DNA of 64,000 nt from Microbacteriaceae bacterium PS02067 (GTDB lineage Bacteria > Actinomycetota > Actinomycetes > Actinomycetales > Microbacteriaceae). Both the position numbers and the translations under genes were made by a program. Under the pieces are notes generated by a model. The model did no database searches and was not told the origin of the DNA. It saw only the letters and a program-made list of their open reading frames with translations. Below, piece after piece: positions 5,288 to 56,633 of this stretch; within the stretch, counting starts at the first letter, position 1, and the number at the start of each line of letters is the position of its first letter. The stretch is taken from NCBI GenBank assembly GCA_029960085.1, contig JASCPG010000001.1:62001-126000 (forward strand), in the 5' to 3' direction.

Positions 5288-5865
5288 GCGGCTTTCGACA
5301 GGCGCCGGCGGCGGCGCAGCAGAGCGACGATCATGACGATCAGTCCGACGAGCAGCACCGCCGAGACGATCGGAACCACCACGGCGGTGATCGCGAGGGC
5401 GAAGGACGACAGGTCCTCGGCCGTCGAGAGCGCCGGCGCTGCGATGCCCGCGGTCGCGACATTCGCGACGGGGCGGACCGTCGCCTTCGCGGCATGCACG
5501 GCCAGCGCGATCACGATGCCGACCGCGATCGGCACCCACGCGCCGTTCTCGAACAGATGCGTGGGATCGGTCGCCGCTTCGGCACTCGCACCCGCGCCGA
5601 AGGCGATGCCGCCGGATGCCGGTCGGATGACCGTCTGGATGACGTCGTTGATCGAGTCGACCGCGGGGATCTTGTCGGCGACGATCTCGACGACGAGCAG
5701 CGCACCGACGATCCACAGGGCGGCGTCGCTGGAGAGCCAGGCCCAACCCGCAGGCAGATCGAACCCCGGGAGGAAGCGGTCCACCATGCCGAGCACGAAC
5801 AGCGGCATCCAGGCGTTGAGGCCCGCGGCCGCCGCAAGGCTCGACCCGACGAGGAACTCCAGCAT
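5272..5865 (-). CDS. DUF4126 family membrane protein
   Basis: The 197-aa protein begins with a hydrophobic, Ala-rich segment (SSLAAAAGLNAWMPLFVLG) typical of DUF4126, has the central DKIPAVDSINDVIQT motif, and ends with a strong membrane segment (about residues 160-183) and a basic tail. It should be an integral membrane protein of unknown role. The ATG at 5865 is preceded on its strand by TACGCT with a 6-base gap, again leaderless in design. It ends inside the 3' end of coaE (convergent, 16-base overlap). Confidence 0.85.
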   Translation of the reverse strand: MLEFLVGSSLAAAAGLNAWMPLFVLGMVDRFLPGFDLPAGWAWLSSDAALWIVGALLVVEIVADKIPAVDSINDVIQTVIRPASGGIAFGAGASAEAATDPTHLFENGAWVPIAVGIVIALAVHAAKATVRPVANVATAGIAAPALSTAEDLSSFALAITAVVVPIVSAVLLVGLIVMIVALLRRRRRLSKAAQPRA

Positions 5866-43321: not shown

Positions 43322-43370
43322 GTGCGTGGTGCGTGGTGCGTTGTGCGTTGTGCGTTGTGCGTTGTGCGTG
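43322..43370. repeat. Heptamer tandem repeat, seven copies of GTGCGTK
   Basis: Seven perfect 7-base steps (GTGCGTG or GTGCGTT). It lies in the 447-base stretch 43167-43613 between bioY and the HNH gene, which otherwise holds the bioY promoter, a second heptamer tract and a hairpin, and no convincing gene. A GGGCTGT-type doublet follows directly (43373-43390). Confidence 0.95.
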
Positions 43371-43424
43371 GAGGGCTGTGGGCTGTGGGTGGTGATCTGC
43401 GCTCATTGCGCGTTGCGGCGGACT

Positions 43425-43466
43425 CTCCCTGCTCCCTGCTCCCTGCTCCCTGCTCCCTGCTCCCTG
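43425..43466. repeat. Heptamer tandem repeat, six copies of CTCCCTG
   Basis: Six perfect copies, 42 bases, strand-asymmetric (pyrimidine-rich). Because the unit is 7 bases, reading through it cycles all three frames; no RBS or stop arrangement suggests translation. Copy number is likely to vary between strains. Confidence 0.95.
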
Positions 43467-43531
43467 CTGCGGTACGCCGCGTAGAATGCGGTCTTCCGGT
43501 GGCCCGTCGCGAGCGGCGGGTGCGGGAAGTG

Positions 43532-43613: not shown

Positions 43614-45071
43614 CTAAAACGGCGGCGGCGGCTCCGCGTCCGAGACCGAGCTGGGGGCGGGGGTGAAGGCCACCCGCGGCATCACCCGATCGGGGTAGCT
43701 ACGACCCGTCGGTGACGTCCATGTGATTGTGCCGTCGTCGGCCTTCGCATACGCCCACCGGGTGCCGTGCTTGAGGACGTGATGTCGGCGACAGAGCGTT
43801 GTCAGATTGTCTGACGCGGTCGCTCCGCCGAGGGCGGCGTCGTCGATATGGTCCACATCGCACCGTCGCGGCGGCAACATGCACCCGGGGAACCGGCAGC
43901 GCTCGTCGATCGCCCGGAGGTATCTGCGCAGGTCGGAACTCGGGCGGTACCGGTCCACCGCCAGCACCGCGCCCGTCACGGGGTGGGTCAGGACGCGATC
44001 CCATCCGGGTGCCGCACCCACGAGGTGGAGTGCGGTCGCGACGTCGACCGGCTGAACGCCGTCGAGCATCGCCGGCTCGAAGCGGCTGCGGGGCACGCCG
44101 GGCGCGCCGAAGTCACGGAATCCGCCGGAAGCGCGGGCCCCGCCGGGCCCACGGGCCCCGCCGGACCCAAAGACCTCGCCGGGATCGCCGGACCCCAAGA
44201 CCCCGCCGGGCTCGCCGGCCCCAGGGGCTCCGCTGGACGCCTCGGGCGCCTCGCACGCGCCGCCCAGAGTGAGCACCGGCACCGTCACGCTCACTGTCGC
44301 CGTGATCGCCCCGAGCAGCTCAGCGGGGCCATGCGCCACAGGCATCCCGGTCAGAGCGACATCGCACAGCAGATCGGCGCGCAGCTGGTCGAGCGTCCGC
44401 TCCTCGTCCGTCGCGGCGGCGGACACCGCGCGCGCCTGCTGCGTGAGGCGGTCGAGAATGCCGTGCGCGAGCGTTGCGGGAAGCAGCGCGGAAAGCTCGC
44501 TCATGCCGTCGTCGAGGTCTGCCGCCCGAACACACCGACCCTCGGCTGCATCGCGGTGCCGCTCGTCGAGCCCGCGCGGGAGCACGCGCTCCGCGGCGAC
44601 GCGCGCGAACGGCCGGAGACGTCCCGGGGTATCCCTGGCGGCGACCGCGAGGACTGCCTCTTCGTATCGCGATCGCAGCATGGCATCGTCGATGTGCGCA
44701 CCGGTCTCGACGATGACCCGTGCGTGCGCTCGGGAGATGAGCCCTTGCGCGAGTGCGTCGTGTGTGGCGGCGAACTGCTCTGCCAGGACGCTCGCCTCCC
44801 CGAGGCGCCGCTGGATCGTCCGGTCGGAGACCCGCAGCGCCGCGGCGAGCTCGGCAGCCACCTCGCGCACGGGGAGATCACCGTCGCCACGGGTCGCATC
44901 GACGTGCGCGAGCGCGAGCGCATTCGCCGCGTACAGAATCTGCTCCTCGATGGCCTCAAGTGAGGCCATCGCACGACGCGTCTCTACGATCGAGGCGGTC
45001 AGTGCGTCGAGCATCGCGGCATCCGTCGCCGTAAGCGACGGGGGCGGTGCCGGAGGCGCGGTATCGAACAT
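43614..45071 (-). CDS. DUF222 / HNH endonuclease domain protein
   Basis: 485-aa protein of the abundant actinobacterial DUF222-HNH family. The N-terminal helical DUF222 region (about residues 15-250) is followed by a Gly/Pro/Ser/Ala-rich low-complexity insert (about 275-325) and the C-terminal HNH motif: Cys in CRFPGCMLPPRRCDVDHI, then NLTTLCRRHHVLKHG. Metal ligands and the D-H catalytic pair look intact, so it may be an active nuclease; biological role of the family is unsettled. I choose the ATG at 45071 because CATAAT ends 7 bases upstream; an ATG ten codons earlier is possible. Confidence 0.88.
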   Translation of the reverse strand: MFDTAPPAPPPSLTATDAAMLDALTASIVETRRAMASLEAIEEQILYAANALALAHVDATRGDGDLPVREVAAELAAALRVSDRTIQRRLGEASVLAEQFAATHDALAQGLISRAHARVIVETGAHIDDAMLRSRYEEAVLAVAARDTPGRLRPFARVAAERVLPRGLDERHRDAAEGRCVRAADLDDGMSELSALLPATLAHGILDRLTQQARAVSAAATDEERTLDQLRADLLCDVALTGMPVAHGPAELLGAITATVSVTVPVLTLGGACEAPEASSGAPGAGEPGGVLGSGDPGEVFGSGGARGPGGARASGGFRDFGAPGVPRSRFEPAMLDGVQPVDVATALHLVGAAPGWDRVLTHPVTGAVLAVDRYRPSSDLRRYLRAIDERCRFPGCMLPPRRCDVDHIDDAALGGATASDNLTTLCRRHHVLKHGTRWAYAKADDGTITWTSPTGRSYPDRVMPRVAFTPAPSSVSDAEPPPPF

Positions 45072-45233
45072 AGATTCGATTATGCCGGGGGCCTCCGACA
45101 TCGGCCGCGCGGTCCGACGATGGTCCCGATAAGGGGCCGGTAGACTGGAGGTTCGGCATCCGTCCCGCCCCGCGATCACGCGCGGCCGAGGCATCCGCCG
45201 CAGACCCTCCCCTCCGAAGAACGGACATCCGCT

Positions 45234-53576: not shown

Positions 53577-54359
53577 ATGCCCCAGGTGCTCGAGTTCGTC
53601 GATGTCGTCGTCCGCCGCAACGCGAGGAACATCGTCGACCACGTGGACTGGCGCGTCGATGACGACCAGCGCTGGGTGATCCTCGGCCCCAACGGTGCCG
53701 GCAAGACGACGATCCTGCAGCTGGCGGCGACGCTCCTGCATCCGACGTCGGGAACCGTGCAAGTGCTGGGGGAGACCCTCGGGCGTTCTGATGTGTTCGA
53801 GCTGCGGCCCCGCATCGGATTCGCGTCGTCGGCGATGGCACGCCGCGTGCCGCCCGAGGAGACGGTGCTCGACGTCGTCCTGACCGCCGCATACTCGGTG
53901 CTCGGGCGCTGGAACGAGCAGTACGAGTCGATCGACGAGCGCCGTGCGCGCCGCGTGCTGGCGGAGTGGAAGCTCGAGCACCTCGCCGAGCGCACCTTCG
54001 GCACGCTCTCCGACGGGGAGCAGAAGCGGGTGCAGATCGCCCGCGCGGTGATGACCGACCCCGAGCTGCTGCTCCTCGACGAGCCGACGGCGAGTCTCGA
54101 CCTCGGGGCCCGCGAGGAGCTCCTCGGCCTGCTGGGAGGATACGCGCAGGCTCCGACGACCCCGGCGATGGTGATGGTGACGCACCATGTCGAGGAGATC
54201 CCGGTGGGATTCACCCACGTCCTGCTGCTGCGTGACGGCGGTGTCGTCGCGGCAGGAGCGATCTCCGAGACACTCACGGCCGAGAACCTGTCGACGACAT
54301 TCGGGATGCCCATCGCGTTGAGCGAGGCCGACGGCCGCTTCGCAGCTCGCGCGTTCTGA
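53577..54359 (+). CDS. Stand-alone ABC ATP-binding protein
   Basis: 260-aa ATPase: Walker [15 protein letters not shown], Walker [14 protein letters not shown], switch His in [10 protein letters not shown]. The signature reads [15 protein letters not shown] instead of LSGGQ, as in the ModF/PhnK-like and YlmA group of orphan ABC ATPases, which are not coupled to a permease here. ATG 6 bases after TAGGCT (53565-53570). Function unknown. Confidence 0.9.
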
Positions 54360-54432
54360 TCCCCGGTCCGCACAGCCGGCCGCGGGCTGGTAACATAGTC
54401 CTTTGGTGCTCTCCGCACCGCAGACTTCCCTC

Positions 54433-54452
54433 GCCCTGGCAAAATCCAGGGC
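54433..54452 (+). ncRNA. rpmE2 leader hairpin (possible L31 autoregulatory leader)
   Basis: A perfect 7-base stem GCCCTGG/CCAGGGC with a 6-base loop (CAAAAT) lies 17 bases before the rpmE2 ATG, between the -10 (TAACAT, about 54391-54396) and the RBS. Actinobacterial L31 genes are known to carry autoregulatory leaders; I infer but cannot confirm that this is one. Confidence 0.4.
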
Positions 54453-54469
54453 ACCACGTAAGGAACCCC

Positions 54470-54721
54470 ATGAAGACTGACATCCACCCCGAGTACCAGG
54501 CGGTCGTGTTCCGCGACCTCGGCTCCGGCGAGACCTTCCTGACCCGTTCGACGGTCACGAGCGACAAGACGATCGAGCTCGACGGCGTCGAGTACCCCGT
54601 CATCGACGTCGAGATCTCGTCGGCGTCGCACCCGTTCTACACGGGCAAGCAGCGCATCATGGACTCGGCCGGTCGCGTCGAGAAGTTCAACCAGCGCTTC
54701 AAGAACTTCGGCTCGAAGTAA
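54470..54721 (+). CDS. rpmE2: 50S ribosomal protein L31 type B
   Basis: 83-aa ribosomal protein. It has the type B features: [38 protein letters not shown], and no zinc-binding Cys. Type B L31 replaces the zinc form when zinc is scarce, but in many actinobacteria it may be the main copy. RBS TAAGGAAC. Followed by a strong terminator. Confidence 0.95.
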
Positions 54722-54732
54722 CCTTCGCGCCC

Positions 54733-54760
54733 CAAGAGCCCCGCTTCGGCGGGGCTCTTG
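54733..54760 (+). terminator. Intrinsic terminator after rpmE2
   Basis: A 12-base perfect stem (CAAGAGCCCCGC with GCGGGGCTCTTG) capped by a TTCG tetraloop. It ends 29 bases before the hairpin array. Confidence 0.9.
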
Positions 54761-54788
54761 TCGTTTCCGCGGCGGTTGGTGTCCCCCC

Positions 54789-55785
54789 GGTCGTTGACCG
54801 AGCGAAGCGAGTGGAAACGTCGGTGGGCGCCGGGGGCGTTTCGACTCGTCGCTGCGCGGCTCGCTCAACGACCGGGGAATGCCTGCCCCTGGTCGTTGAC
54901 CGAGCGAAGCGAGTGGAAACGTCTGTGGCCCTGGCGCACGTTTCGACTCGCCGCTGCGCGCCTCGCTCAACGGCCGGAGATGCGGAACCCTCCGGTCGTT
55001 GACCGAGCGGAGCGAGTGGAAACGTCTGCGGCCCTGGGAGCGCGTTTCGACTCGCCGCTGCGCGGCTCGCCCAACGGCCGGAGATGCGGAACCCTCCGGT
55101 CGTTGACCGAGCGGAGCGAGTGGAAACGTCTGCGGCCCTGGGGGCACGTTTCGACTCGCCGCTGCGCGGCTCGCCCAACGCCCGGGGATGCGGAACCATC
55201 CGGTCGTTGACCGAGCGGAGCGAGTGGAAACGTCCCCGAGCACGGCTCCGTTTCGACTTGCCGCTGCGCGCCTCGCTCAACGCCCGGAGAGTGTCTGCCC
55301 CTGGTCGTTGACCGAGCGGAGCGAGTGGAAACGTCTGCGGCCCTGGGGGCACGTTTCGACTCGCCGCTGCGCGCCTCGCTCAACGACCGGAGATGCGGAA
55401 CCCTCCGGTCGTTGACCGAGCGCAGCGAGTGGAAACGTCCCCGAGCACCGCTCCGTTTCGACTCGCCGCTACGCGGCTCGCTCAACGACCGGGGGTGGTG
55501 CGCGGCTCGCTCAACGACCGGAGTATGCCTGCCTCCGGTCGTTGACCGAGCGCAGCGAGTGGAAACGTCTGCGGCCCCTGGGGGCACGTTTCGACTCGCC
55601 GCTGCGCGCCTCGCTCAACGCCCGGAGATGCGGAACCCTCCGGTCGTTGACCGAGCGAAGCGAGTGGAAACGTTGGTGGCACTGGGGGCGTTTCGACTCG
55701 CCGCTGCGCGGCTCGCTCAACGACCGGGGGTGGTGCGCGGCTCGCTCAACGACCGGGTGGTGCGCGGCTCGTTCAGCGACCGGGG
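54789..55785. repeat. Nine-unit tandem array of ~103-bp hairpin repeats
   Basis: Units begin with GGTCGTTGACCGAGCG at 54789, 54891, 54994, 55098, 55202, 55303, 55407, 55537 and 55642: period 101-105 except one 130-base step. Each unit has a left arm (GGTCGTTGACCGAGCG, then AGCGAGTGGAAACG), a G/C-rich spacer, a right arm (CGTTTCGACTCG, CGCTGCG, GCTCGCTCAACGACCGG) that is nearly the reverse complement of the left, and a short linker often reading GATGCGGAACCCTCC. Three extra right-arm stubs occur at 55496-55521, 55731-55757 and 55758-55784. It fills the gap between two convergent genes (54722-55801). Long open frames cross it on both strands but repeat the palindrome and are not genes. Confidence 0.97.
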
Positions 55786-55801
55786 CGGGGCGAGCGGGGC
55801 G

Positions 55802-56548
55802 TCAGCGGATGGGCCAGCTGCCGTCGAGGCGGTCGGCGGGGTCGATGCGGCCGATGCGGATGAAGTACTCCGTCAGGCTGTCGGCCTGCGCACGCGCCCA
55901 GCCGATCTGGGCGGTGTGAAGCTCCTCGACAGGACCGTCGAGCTCGTAGCGCCGCGCGAGCGCCTGCGCGACCCGTCCGGCGGCGATCGCATCGGCCTCC
56001 GCATCGTGCGCGCCCTCCAGCCGCACGGCGTAGTGCGCCGCGACGACCTCGAGCGTGCGCTTGCCCTTGCGGTACCGATCGTGCGCCTTGTCGAGGACGA
56101 GCGGATCGACGACCGGCGACGGATCGACGATCGGCGCCACCCCGTGACGGACGGCCTCGTGCTTGAGCAGCGAGAAGTCGAACGGCGCGTTGTAGGCAAC
56201 GACGGGGATGCCCGCTGCGAACAGCTCCTGCAGCGCCGTCACGATCTCGCCGACGACCTCGCGCGCCGGCGCGCCGTGCTGGCGGGCATGTTCGGTCGTG
56301 ATGCCGTGCACGGCCGTCGCACCCTCCGGGATGTCGACACCCGGATCGGCGAGCCACGACCGGGCGCGGATCACGGTGCCGTCAGCGCCCAAGAGCCCGA
56401 CATGCGCGCTCACGATCCGATCGCCCGCCACATCGACACCCGTCGTCTCGAGGTCGAACACGCCCACGGCATCCGCCCACGACGCCTGTGCGGGGCGTGC
56501 CGCCGGCACGTCATCGTCGTCCCAGAGGGGGAGCAGGCCGTCATCCAT
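55802..56548 (-). CDS. DnaQ-like 3'-5' exonuclease
   Basis: 248-aa DEDDh exonuclease: motif I FDLETTGVD, motif II AYNAPFDFSLL and motif III HDAEADAIAAGRVAQ are intact, with the HGITTEHARQHG segment between. Similar actinobacterial proteins are annotated as DNA polymerase III epsilon-like; this one lacks a polymerase-binding tail, so it may act alone in repair or RNA turnover. ATG 7 bases after TACCGT on this strand. Its stop is 17 bases past the array. Confidence 0.92.
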   Translation of the reverse strand: MDDGLLPLWDDDDVPAARPAQASWADAVGVFDLETTGVDVAGDRIVSAHVGLLGADGTVIRARSWLADPGVDIPEGATAVHGITTEHARQHGAPAREVVGEIVTALQELFAAGIPVVAYNAPFDFSLLKHEAVRHGVAPIVDPSPVVDPLVLDKAHDRYRKGKRTLEVVAAHYAVRLEGAHDAEADAIAAGRVAQALARRYELDGPVEELHTAQIGWARAQADSLTEYFIRIGRIDPADRLDGSWPIR

Positions 56549-56633
56549 GCCTTCGACGGTATGCGCACCCTCCGACACGGACGCGACGCCACGCGGGCGC
56601 GGAGCACGCGGGCGTCGCTCGTAGAATCGACGG

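Follow-up and report, generated by a model that had tools for sequence, protein, structure and literature searches.

A BIME-2-like tandem array of GGT-tagged palindromes in Microbacteriaceae bacterium PS02067

The array and its neighbouring genes

In Microbacteriaceae bacterium PS02067, a tandem array of palindromic units lies between two convergent genes, encoding ribosomal protein L31 on the plus strand and an exonuclease on the minus strand. The whole stretch of 64,000 nucleotides that was analysed is called the window below, and positions refer to it. The source genome (G000) is a 3.03-Mb draft of 164 contigs, and the copy number of the units is read from this draft assembly. The features of the locus are as follows.

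54470..54721, plus strand: ribosomal protein L31 gene (Pfam Ribosomal_L31)
54735..54762 (core 54743-54755), plus strand: terminator-like hairpin between L31 and the array (sequence scan)
54783..55785, no strand: whole array, nine inverted-heterodimer units and three truncated right arms (repeat and fold analysis)
54789..54875, no strand: unit 1, short arm (minus), 17-nt spacer and long arm (plus)
54891..54977, no strand: unit 2
54994..55081, no strand: unit 3
55098..55185, no strand: unit 4
55202..55287, no strand: unit 5
55303..55390, no strand: unit 6
55407..55492, no strand: unit 7
55499..55521, plus strand: truncated long-arm copy (3' half with tag), source of the 130-nt period
55537..55625, no strand: unit 8
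55642..55727, no strand: unit 9
55734..55783, plus strand: two further truncated long-arm copies, 27-nt period
55802..56578, minus strand: exonuclease gene, convergent with L31 (Pfam RNase_T)

The nine units span 54789-55727 and, with three truncated copies of the right arm (after units 7 and 9, at 55499, 55734 and 55761), the array reaches 55783. The nine left arms, each 31 nt long, start at 54789, 54891, 54994, 55098, 55202, 55303, 55407, 55537 and 55642, which gives periods of 102, 103, 104, 104, 101, 104, 130 and 105 in that order; the period of 130 nt arises because the truncated right arm at 55499 sits behind unit 7. Right arms, likewise nine, start at positions from 54837 to 55689. The spacers inside the units measure 16-19 nt and fall into a few classes that recur along the array, and the linkers between consecutive units measure 15-44 nt. 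Tandem Repeats Finder scored the portion 54783-55494 at 960-1055. When folded as RNA, the units reached -46 to -61 kcal/mol, and all nine were more stable than their shuffles (z -2.6 to -7.5; 100 dinucleotide shuffles each). An earlier, sequence-only reading of this stretch had described nine units with a period of 101-105 nt and one of 130, a long stem in each, recurrent spacer classes and a position between convergent genes; all of this is borne out, and the three truncated right arms are an addition.

Between the L31 stop codon and the start of the array are 61 nt, and about 16-18 nt separate its end from the stop codon of the exonuclease gene. As L31 has a terminator-like hairpin of its own ahead of the array, the L31 transcript probably does not need the array to end, although the scan that found this one hairpin would be expected to find 1.2 +/- 1.3 in shuffled sequence. 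A search of positions 54000-56600 against Rfam returned six matches up to E 1, none of which approached its gathering score, and a known RNA family was therefore rejected as the identity of the array. Carriage by phages or plasmids was rejected as well, since the 31-nt short-arm pattern had no exact match in viral contigs and positions 55400-55500 had no BLAST match in phages or plasmids.

Anatomy of the arms

Each unit of the array is an inverted heterodimer of a long (34-nt) and a short (28-nt) palindrome, with the tags outside and the spacer inside. Across the extended form of the family the palindromes range from 27 to 37 nt and fall into two classes, long arms of mostly 34-37 nt and short arms of 27-28 nt. 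The extended element follows the plan GGT - CGT - TGAGC - inner - GTCGAA - ACG, and a simple form follows the same plan as GGT - NNN - TGAGC-YT-GTCGAA - NNN. Neighbouring arms within 110 nt of each other are inverted in 183 of 225 pairs. This holds above all for a long arm next to a short one (165 of 167 pairs inverted); the orientation is direct in most short/short pairs (28 of 38) and mixed in long/long ones (12 direct, 8 inverted).

The arm family carries a one-sided tag, GGT(C) instead of GTAG or CGTC. ACC, which is GGT on the other strand, stands immediately beside one end of 306 of the 345 arms, and beside the opposite end of two; the full ACCGG adjoins 221 of the 345. The five tag positions are each 62-100% conserved in per-genome profiles, and the untagged side is variable save for a G beside the arm in most arms of genomes G052, G049 and G014 (204 of 345 overall). 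GTAG was found within 10 nt of a single arm among the 345. In the simple form, the 3-nt stem is perfectly paired in 39 of 43 copies, with several different stems, and ACC stands directly behind a perfect stem in 32 of the 43. Within 14 nt, ACC occurs on the tag side of 39 copies and on the other side of 13.

The two arms of every unit had also been said to differ at the same places (GACC against GAGC, GAGTGG against GAGTCG) by conserved asymmetry. The asymmetry is real and resides in the short arm, in which both differences are one coupled change, from G to C at position 7 and from C to G at position 22. Over 345 arms these positions read G...C in 289 and C...G in 54, all of the latter being short arms of G000, and two arms have a broken pair. 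The C...G change disrupts two pairs between the arms of a unit and preserves a pair within the arm; it may stem from one event that was then copied.

Several measures of pairing within single arms were compared with shuffles. In 38 distinct long arms, 93.1% of cells were paired, against 86.2 +/- 0.9 in shuffles, with a covariation score of 0.143 against 0.055; in 20 distinct short arms the values were 98.1% against 93.1% and 0.103 against 0.023. None of 500 shuffles reached the paired fraction and covariation score of either class. Both measures are inflated by the relatedness of the sequences, and the least inflated ones stood at shuffle level: in long arms, four pairs were changed on both sides against 3.0 in shuffles (reached by 150 of 500) and pair types numbered six against 6.3 (383 of 500), and in short arms both counts were one against 0.9 (457 of 500). 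In addition, six single arms folded as DNA no better than their shuffles (z -0.93 to +1.86); one whole unit tested in the same way gave z -5.05. Thus, pairing within the arm is suggested by the sequences, and a hairpin of the single arm is not established.

Distribution of the family

The arm motif has 91 exact matches in G000, and the reversed control has none. Besides the array, 154 arms at up to one mismatch were placed at 26 sites, in 23 regions around motif matches. The largest site, on contig 142 (locus L100), holds 27 arms and eleven others hold 6-13. The view that a nine-copy array is unusual is not supported by these counts, nor by an array of ten sister-variant copies, spaced 125-126 nt, among the matches listed for the single-contig genome G049. 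Single-contig genomes also contain array sites of the arms, with 12 arms in G052, 14 in G049 and six in G008.

The GAC variant, which is that of the array, is present in 18 of 59 Microbacterium genomes, G000 being included and the richest. A sister variant with GTC for GAC is present in 23 of the 59, with 243 copies in G049 and none in G000. The core string of the simple form is more widespread (53 of 59 genomes, at most 135 copies, in G019; reversed controls gave 0-1 per strand). In a family sample of 149 genomes, made up of 147 from other genera and two of Microbacterium (G000 and G034), matches were found in G000 and three others, of which two have a single extended copy and the third a single simple-form copy; the exact pattern is absent from G034. 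The tagged simple form was found in three of 246 genomes of the phylum, G000 included. The extended form is thus nearly confined to Microbacterium. The earlier statement that single dispersed copies of such palindromes are known in Microbacteriaceae is too wide for the extended form, whose two variants occur in that genus, since the other genera yielded it in two of 147 genomes, one copy each. Literature searches on the family and on its core strings, which covered open main texts and left figures, supplements and subscription papers outside their scope, returned no description of it.

The same site in related genomes

The closest named locus (L001), from the metagenome assembly of Microbacterium sp. 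SCN 70-27, has flanks that are 97-99% identical to those of the array. At the same site it holds six units, in a number and order unlike those of G000. Some of its units have close counterparts in the window: two positions separate window unit 7 from L001 unit 4, four separate units 2 and 1, four units 6 and 5, and eight units 1 and 3. Thus, arrays turn over. Long arms are more alike within arrays than between them (identity 0.832 over 210 pairs against 0.726 over 1806 pairs; 58-nt windows, 11 arrays of G000).

In 20 other loci of the Microbacterium type, the gap between the L31 and exonuclease genes is 46-131 bp in 13 and 205-909 bp in seven. The extended arm is absent from all loci from L002 to L080, and one simple palindrome of the superfamily lies in the same intergene of each of L002, L005, L014 and L068. 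The gap of 909 bp belongs to L006, in which the region after position 5855, between the exonuclease and L31 genes, has no arm of the array's family.

Gene context of the arms

Outside genome G014, 93 arm sites were classified, of which 42 lie between tandem genes, 27 between convergent and three between divergent genes; 15 fall within an ORF call and six at contig ends. The control consisted of intergenes without arms, 40 bp or longer, from these loci and from the window, and held 52 tandem, 17 convergent and 34 divergent cases. Arm sites avoid divergent intergenes (three of 72 intergenic arm sites against 34 of 103 in the control; Fisher p 1.3e-6) and are enriched in those between convergent genes (OR 3.0, p 0.0024). 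These figures rest on a home-made gene caller and on regions selected for containing arms, with relatives G052, G049, G038, G008 and G045 sampled for part of their copies. The sequence-only reading had held that copies placed at random inside genes would speak against a site-specific role; the avoidance of divergent, promoter-side intergenes goes against such random placement, although 15 of the 93 sites are within an ORF call.

Some arms lie in the gene for the error-prone DNA polymerase (dnaE2). In G045 they are in frame inside it (L204:2026-2059). In G000 they stand at two contig ends where the gene breaks off (L082:2469-2564 on contig 8 and L102:4132-4290 on contig 144), in the same orientation and about 60 nt apart, beginning near residue 820 of the piece in G000. 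REPs inside dnaE2 genes have been reported in a count that takes GTAG and CGTC elements together (PMC3733652). A separate arrangement was seen at L101:2504-2768, where four short arms in the same orientation are spaced at exactly 79 nt in one of the few divergent intergenes.

Candidate enzymes for mobilization

REPs with a GTAG tag are thought to spread via RAYT transposases. The RAYT/Y1 transposase domain (PF01797) had no match in G000 at E 1, in a search that was positive in E. coli. Among the 59 Microbacterium genomes, G000 included, PF01797 was found at E 0.001 in G041 only, itself without extended arms, and RAYT was rejected as the mobilizer. A transposon between inverted arms on contig 144 of G000 was also rejected, the content being ordinary genes. 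Of the 422 proteins called in the loci, 197 are encoded no more than 600 bp from an arm, and the whole set formed eight clusters of at least four; judged cluster by cluster, none reads as a transposase, and the sole repeat gene is one with DUF222 and HNH domains, present five times in G014 and once in G052.

In G014, 8 of 13 DUF222 genes (14 domain matches) stand between two arms whose orientation is that of a hairpin unit. Their proteins are 80-100% identical to one reference copy. The bracketed element (L104-L108, L237-L239) measures about 1.7 kb, ends in the palindrome arms and has about 42 nt of terminal repeat, and in five aligned copies the homology of about 1.7 kb stops at the arms. Of the exact arms listed for G014, 22 of 25 have a DUF222 match no more than about 1 kb away, and none of the remaining DUF222 matches is near a listed exact arm. 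HNH itself matches weakly, on the tail of the protein (PF01844, E 0.0017, below the Pfam cut-off). One of three homologues in G166 is bracketed by arms.

In G000, the five DUF222 genes have no arm in the surrounding 2.9-3.9 kb. Homologues were matched in 144 genomes, and in 30 of these one locus each was inspected; 27 of the loci are without an arm, and another, which is truncated by a contig end, has one on a single side. GAC-variant arms were found near DUF222 once in G036, at about 0.7 kb, and once in G052. DUF222-HNH was rejected as a general mobilizer, since arms are not near such genes in G000, nor in G038, G049, G008, G028 and G051, for which the places of the exact GAC variant and of DUF222 were compared by eye. 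The gene bracketed in two other species is a weak candidate mobilizer.

Comparison with known repeat families

The y, z1 and z2 units of E. coli measure 35, 29 and 37 nt and form y-z mosaics with a conserved stem mismatch (PMC8266576), and BIME-2 elements are tandem copies bound by gyrase (PMC2817692). As far as these accounts go, the array family resembles E. coli REP and BIME-2 elements in its length classes, alternating inversion, tandem repetition, stem mismatches, intergenic position and mosaic arrays. It differs in its GGT(C) tag, its unrelated sequence and the lack of a detected RAYT/TnpAREP. Two of the features of these systems are plainly present, namely many dispersed copies of a short, imperfect palindrome (the 91 exact copies in G000) and the tandem alternation of two classes (long/short neighbours almost always inverted, the nine units here and the 27 arms at L100). 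The GTAG tag and a cognate RAYT, both of them defining for classic REPs, were not found, and this counts against the BIME-2-like reading.

CGTC-tagged REPs without a dedicated transposase have been described (Di Nocera 2013, PMC3733652). According to that account, most REPs occur in tandem and convergent intergenes, and the CGTC elements come from five phyla, other than that of the array's host, and are mostly dimers, with large clusters in Neisseriae and Wolbachia only. The array family shares with them a one-sided unpaired tag, heterodimers (in some of their families) and tandem and convergent intergenes, and like them it may lack a dedicated transposase. Its GGT(C) tag and CGTT stem start differ from their CGTC (or TGTC, CCTC) tag and AT stem start, as the published consensus is given in the text. 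The main text of PMC3733652 uses none of the words actinobacteria, Microbacterium, Clavibacter and Leifsonia. RepRanger counts palindromic elements in three genomes of Actinomycetota, including an Arthrobacter, and its text contains neither Microbacterium nor RAYT (PMC12306157). REP-like palindromes are therefore already on record for Actinomycetota, in a source compared here by its counts.

The REP13E12/DUF222-HNH repeat genes are alike in being repeated, recombining DUF222 genes, bracketed by arms in two Microbacterium genomes. They differ in that they are not beside arms in G000, and the available descriptions of them mention no such palindromes. The linkers of 15-44 nt leave no room for the gene cassettes that separate attC sites in an integron array.

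Origin and possible roles of the array

In our judgement, the array is very probably a BIME-2-like cluster of a GGT-tagged REP family that lacks a detectable RAYT. Of the origins offered by the sequence-only reading, a mobile palindrome that expanded seems to fit best, with arms dispersed over genome and genus and an array whose number and order differ from those of a relative with nearly identical flanks. The first scattering of copies would have been due to a trans-acting enzyme, other than RAYT, working on the tagged hairpin. Once a unit was in place, unequal recombination or replication slippage between units would expand, shrink and partly homogenize the array, which would be tolerated because it lies beyond the 3' end of each gene. 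In that position, RNA hairpins of the array may protect the 3' end of the exonuclease mRNA or slow down antisense transcription that enters from the convergent gene. By analogy with BIME-2 of E. coli, a topoisomerase may bind the DNA of the array.

Selection at the locus for a functional structure, either a bidirectional transcription barrier or a stabilizer of mRNA 3' ends, is a possible though doubtful explanation, and one compatible with the BIME-2-like reading. It would accord with the stable RNA folds, the avoidance of divergent and enrichment of convergent intergenes, and the simple palindrome in the same intergene of four relatives. However, mere tolerance predicts the same bias of context, 13 of 20 relatives have short gaps and L002-L080 are without the extended arm. 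In addition, L31 owns a terminator-like hairpin, and neither copy number nor order is conserved in L001. An artefact, in which mis-assembly multiplied one or two units, is exceedingly unlikely. The draft is indeed fragmented and several arms lie at contig ends, but the units differ mutually by up to 28 positions, the separate assembly behind L001 shows six similar units at the same place, and arrays are also present in single-contig genomes.

Two further explanations turn on the DUF222-HNH gene. In one, which we regard as decidedly unlikely, a DUF222-HNH mobile element has the arms as its terminal repeats and the units as its MITE-like or empty-site derivatives, with HNH nicking or cutting the palindrome and repair spreading the copies. 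The eight bracketed genes of G014, with homology that ends at the arms, the proximity of most listed arms to DUF222 there and the bracketed homologue in G166 speak for such an element. The armless DUF222 loci of G000, the 27 armless homologue loci and the weak HNH match speak against it. The other, also unlikely, is that the GGT-tagged palindromes amount to a third superfamily of tagged REPs, with Microbacterium at its centre, E. coli-like long/short mosaics and no RAYT, which is moved by a different enzyme, the DUF222-HNH protein of G014 and G166 being the first candidate. If true, this would give the large DUF222/13E12 family a function.

The BIME-2-like reading adds a further class of one-sidedly tagged elements, with up to 243 copies of one variant per genome, in a genus in which 58 of 59 genomes lack a Y1-family match. 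A GGT-tagged family makes it testable what else may move or multiply a tagged hairpin. It also offers a comparison for those features of BIMEs that are independent of RAYT, such as the tag, the mismatched stem, the heterodimer rule and the placement at 3' ends.

Other repeats in and near the window

Another array lies about 1.3 kb before the start of the window (L083:2572-3203), again in a convergent intergene. It has at least 12 arms in alternation, and its short arms show the C...G variant. Within the window, a minus-strand DUF222 gene at 43614-45101 contains repeats of 18-27 nt, and tandem repeats of a heptamer lie beside it at 43322-43468 (about seven copies) and at 44122-44223 (about six).
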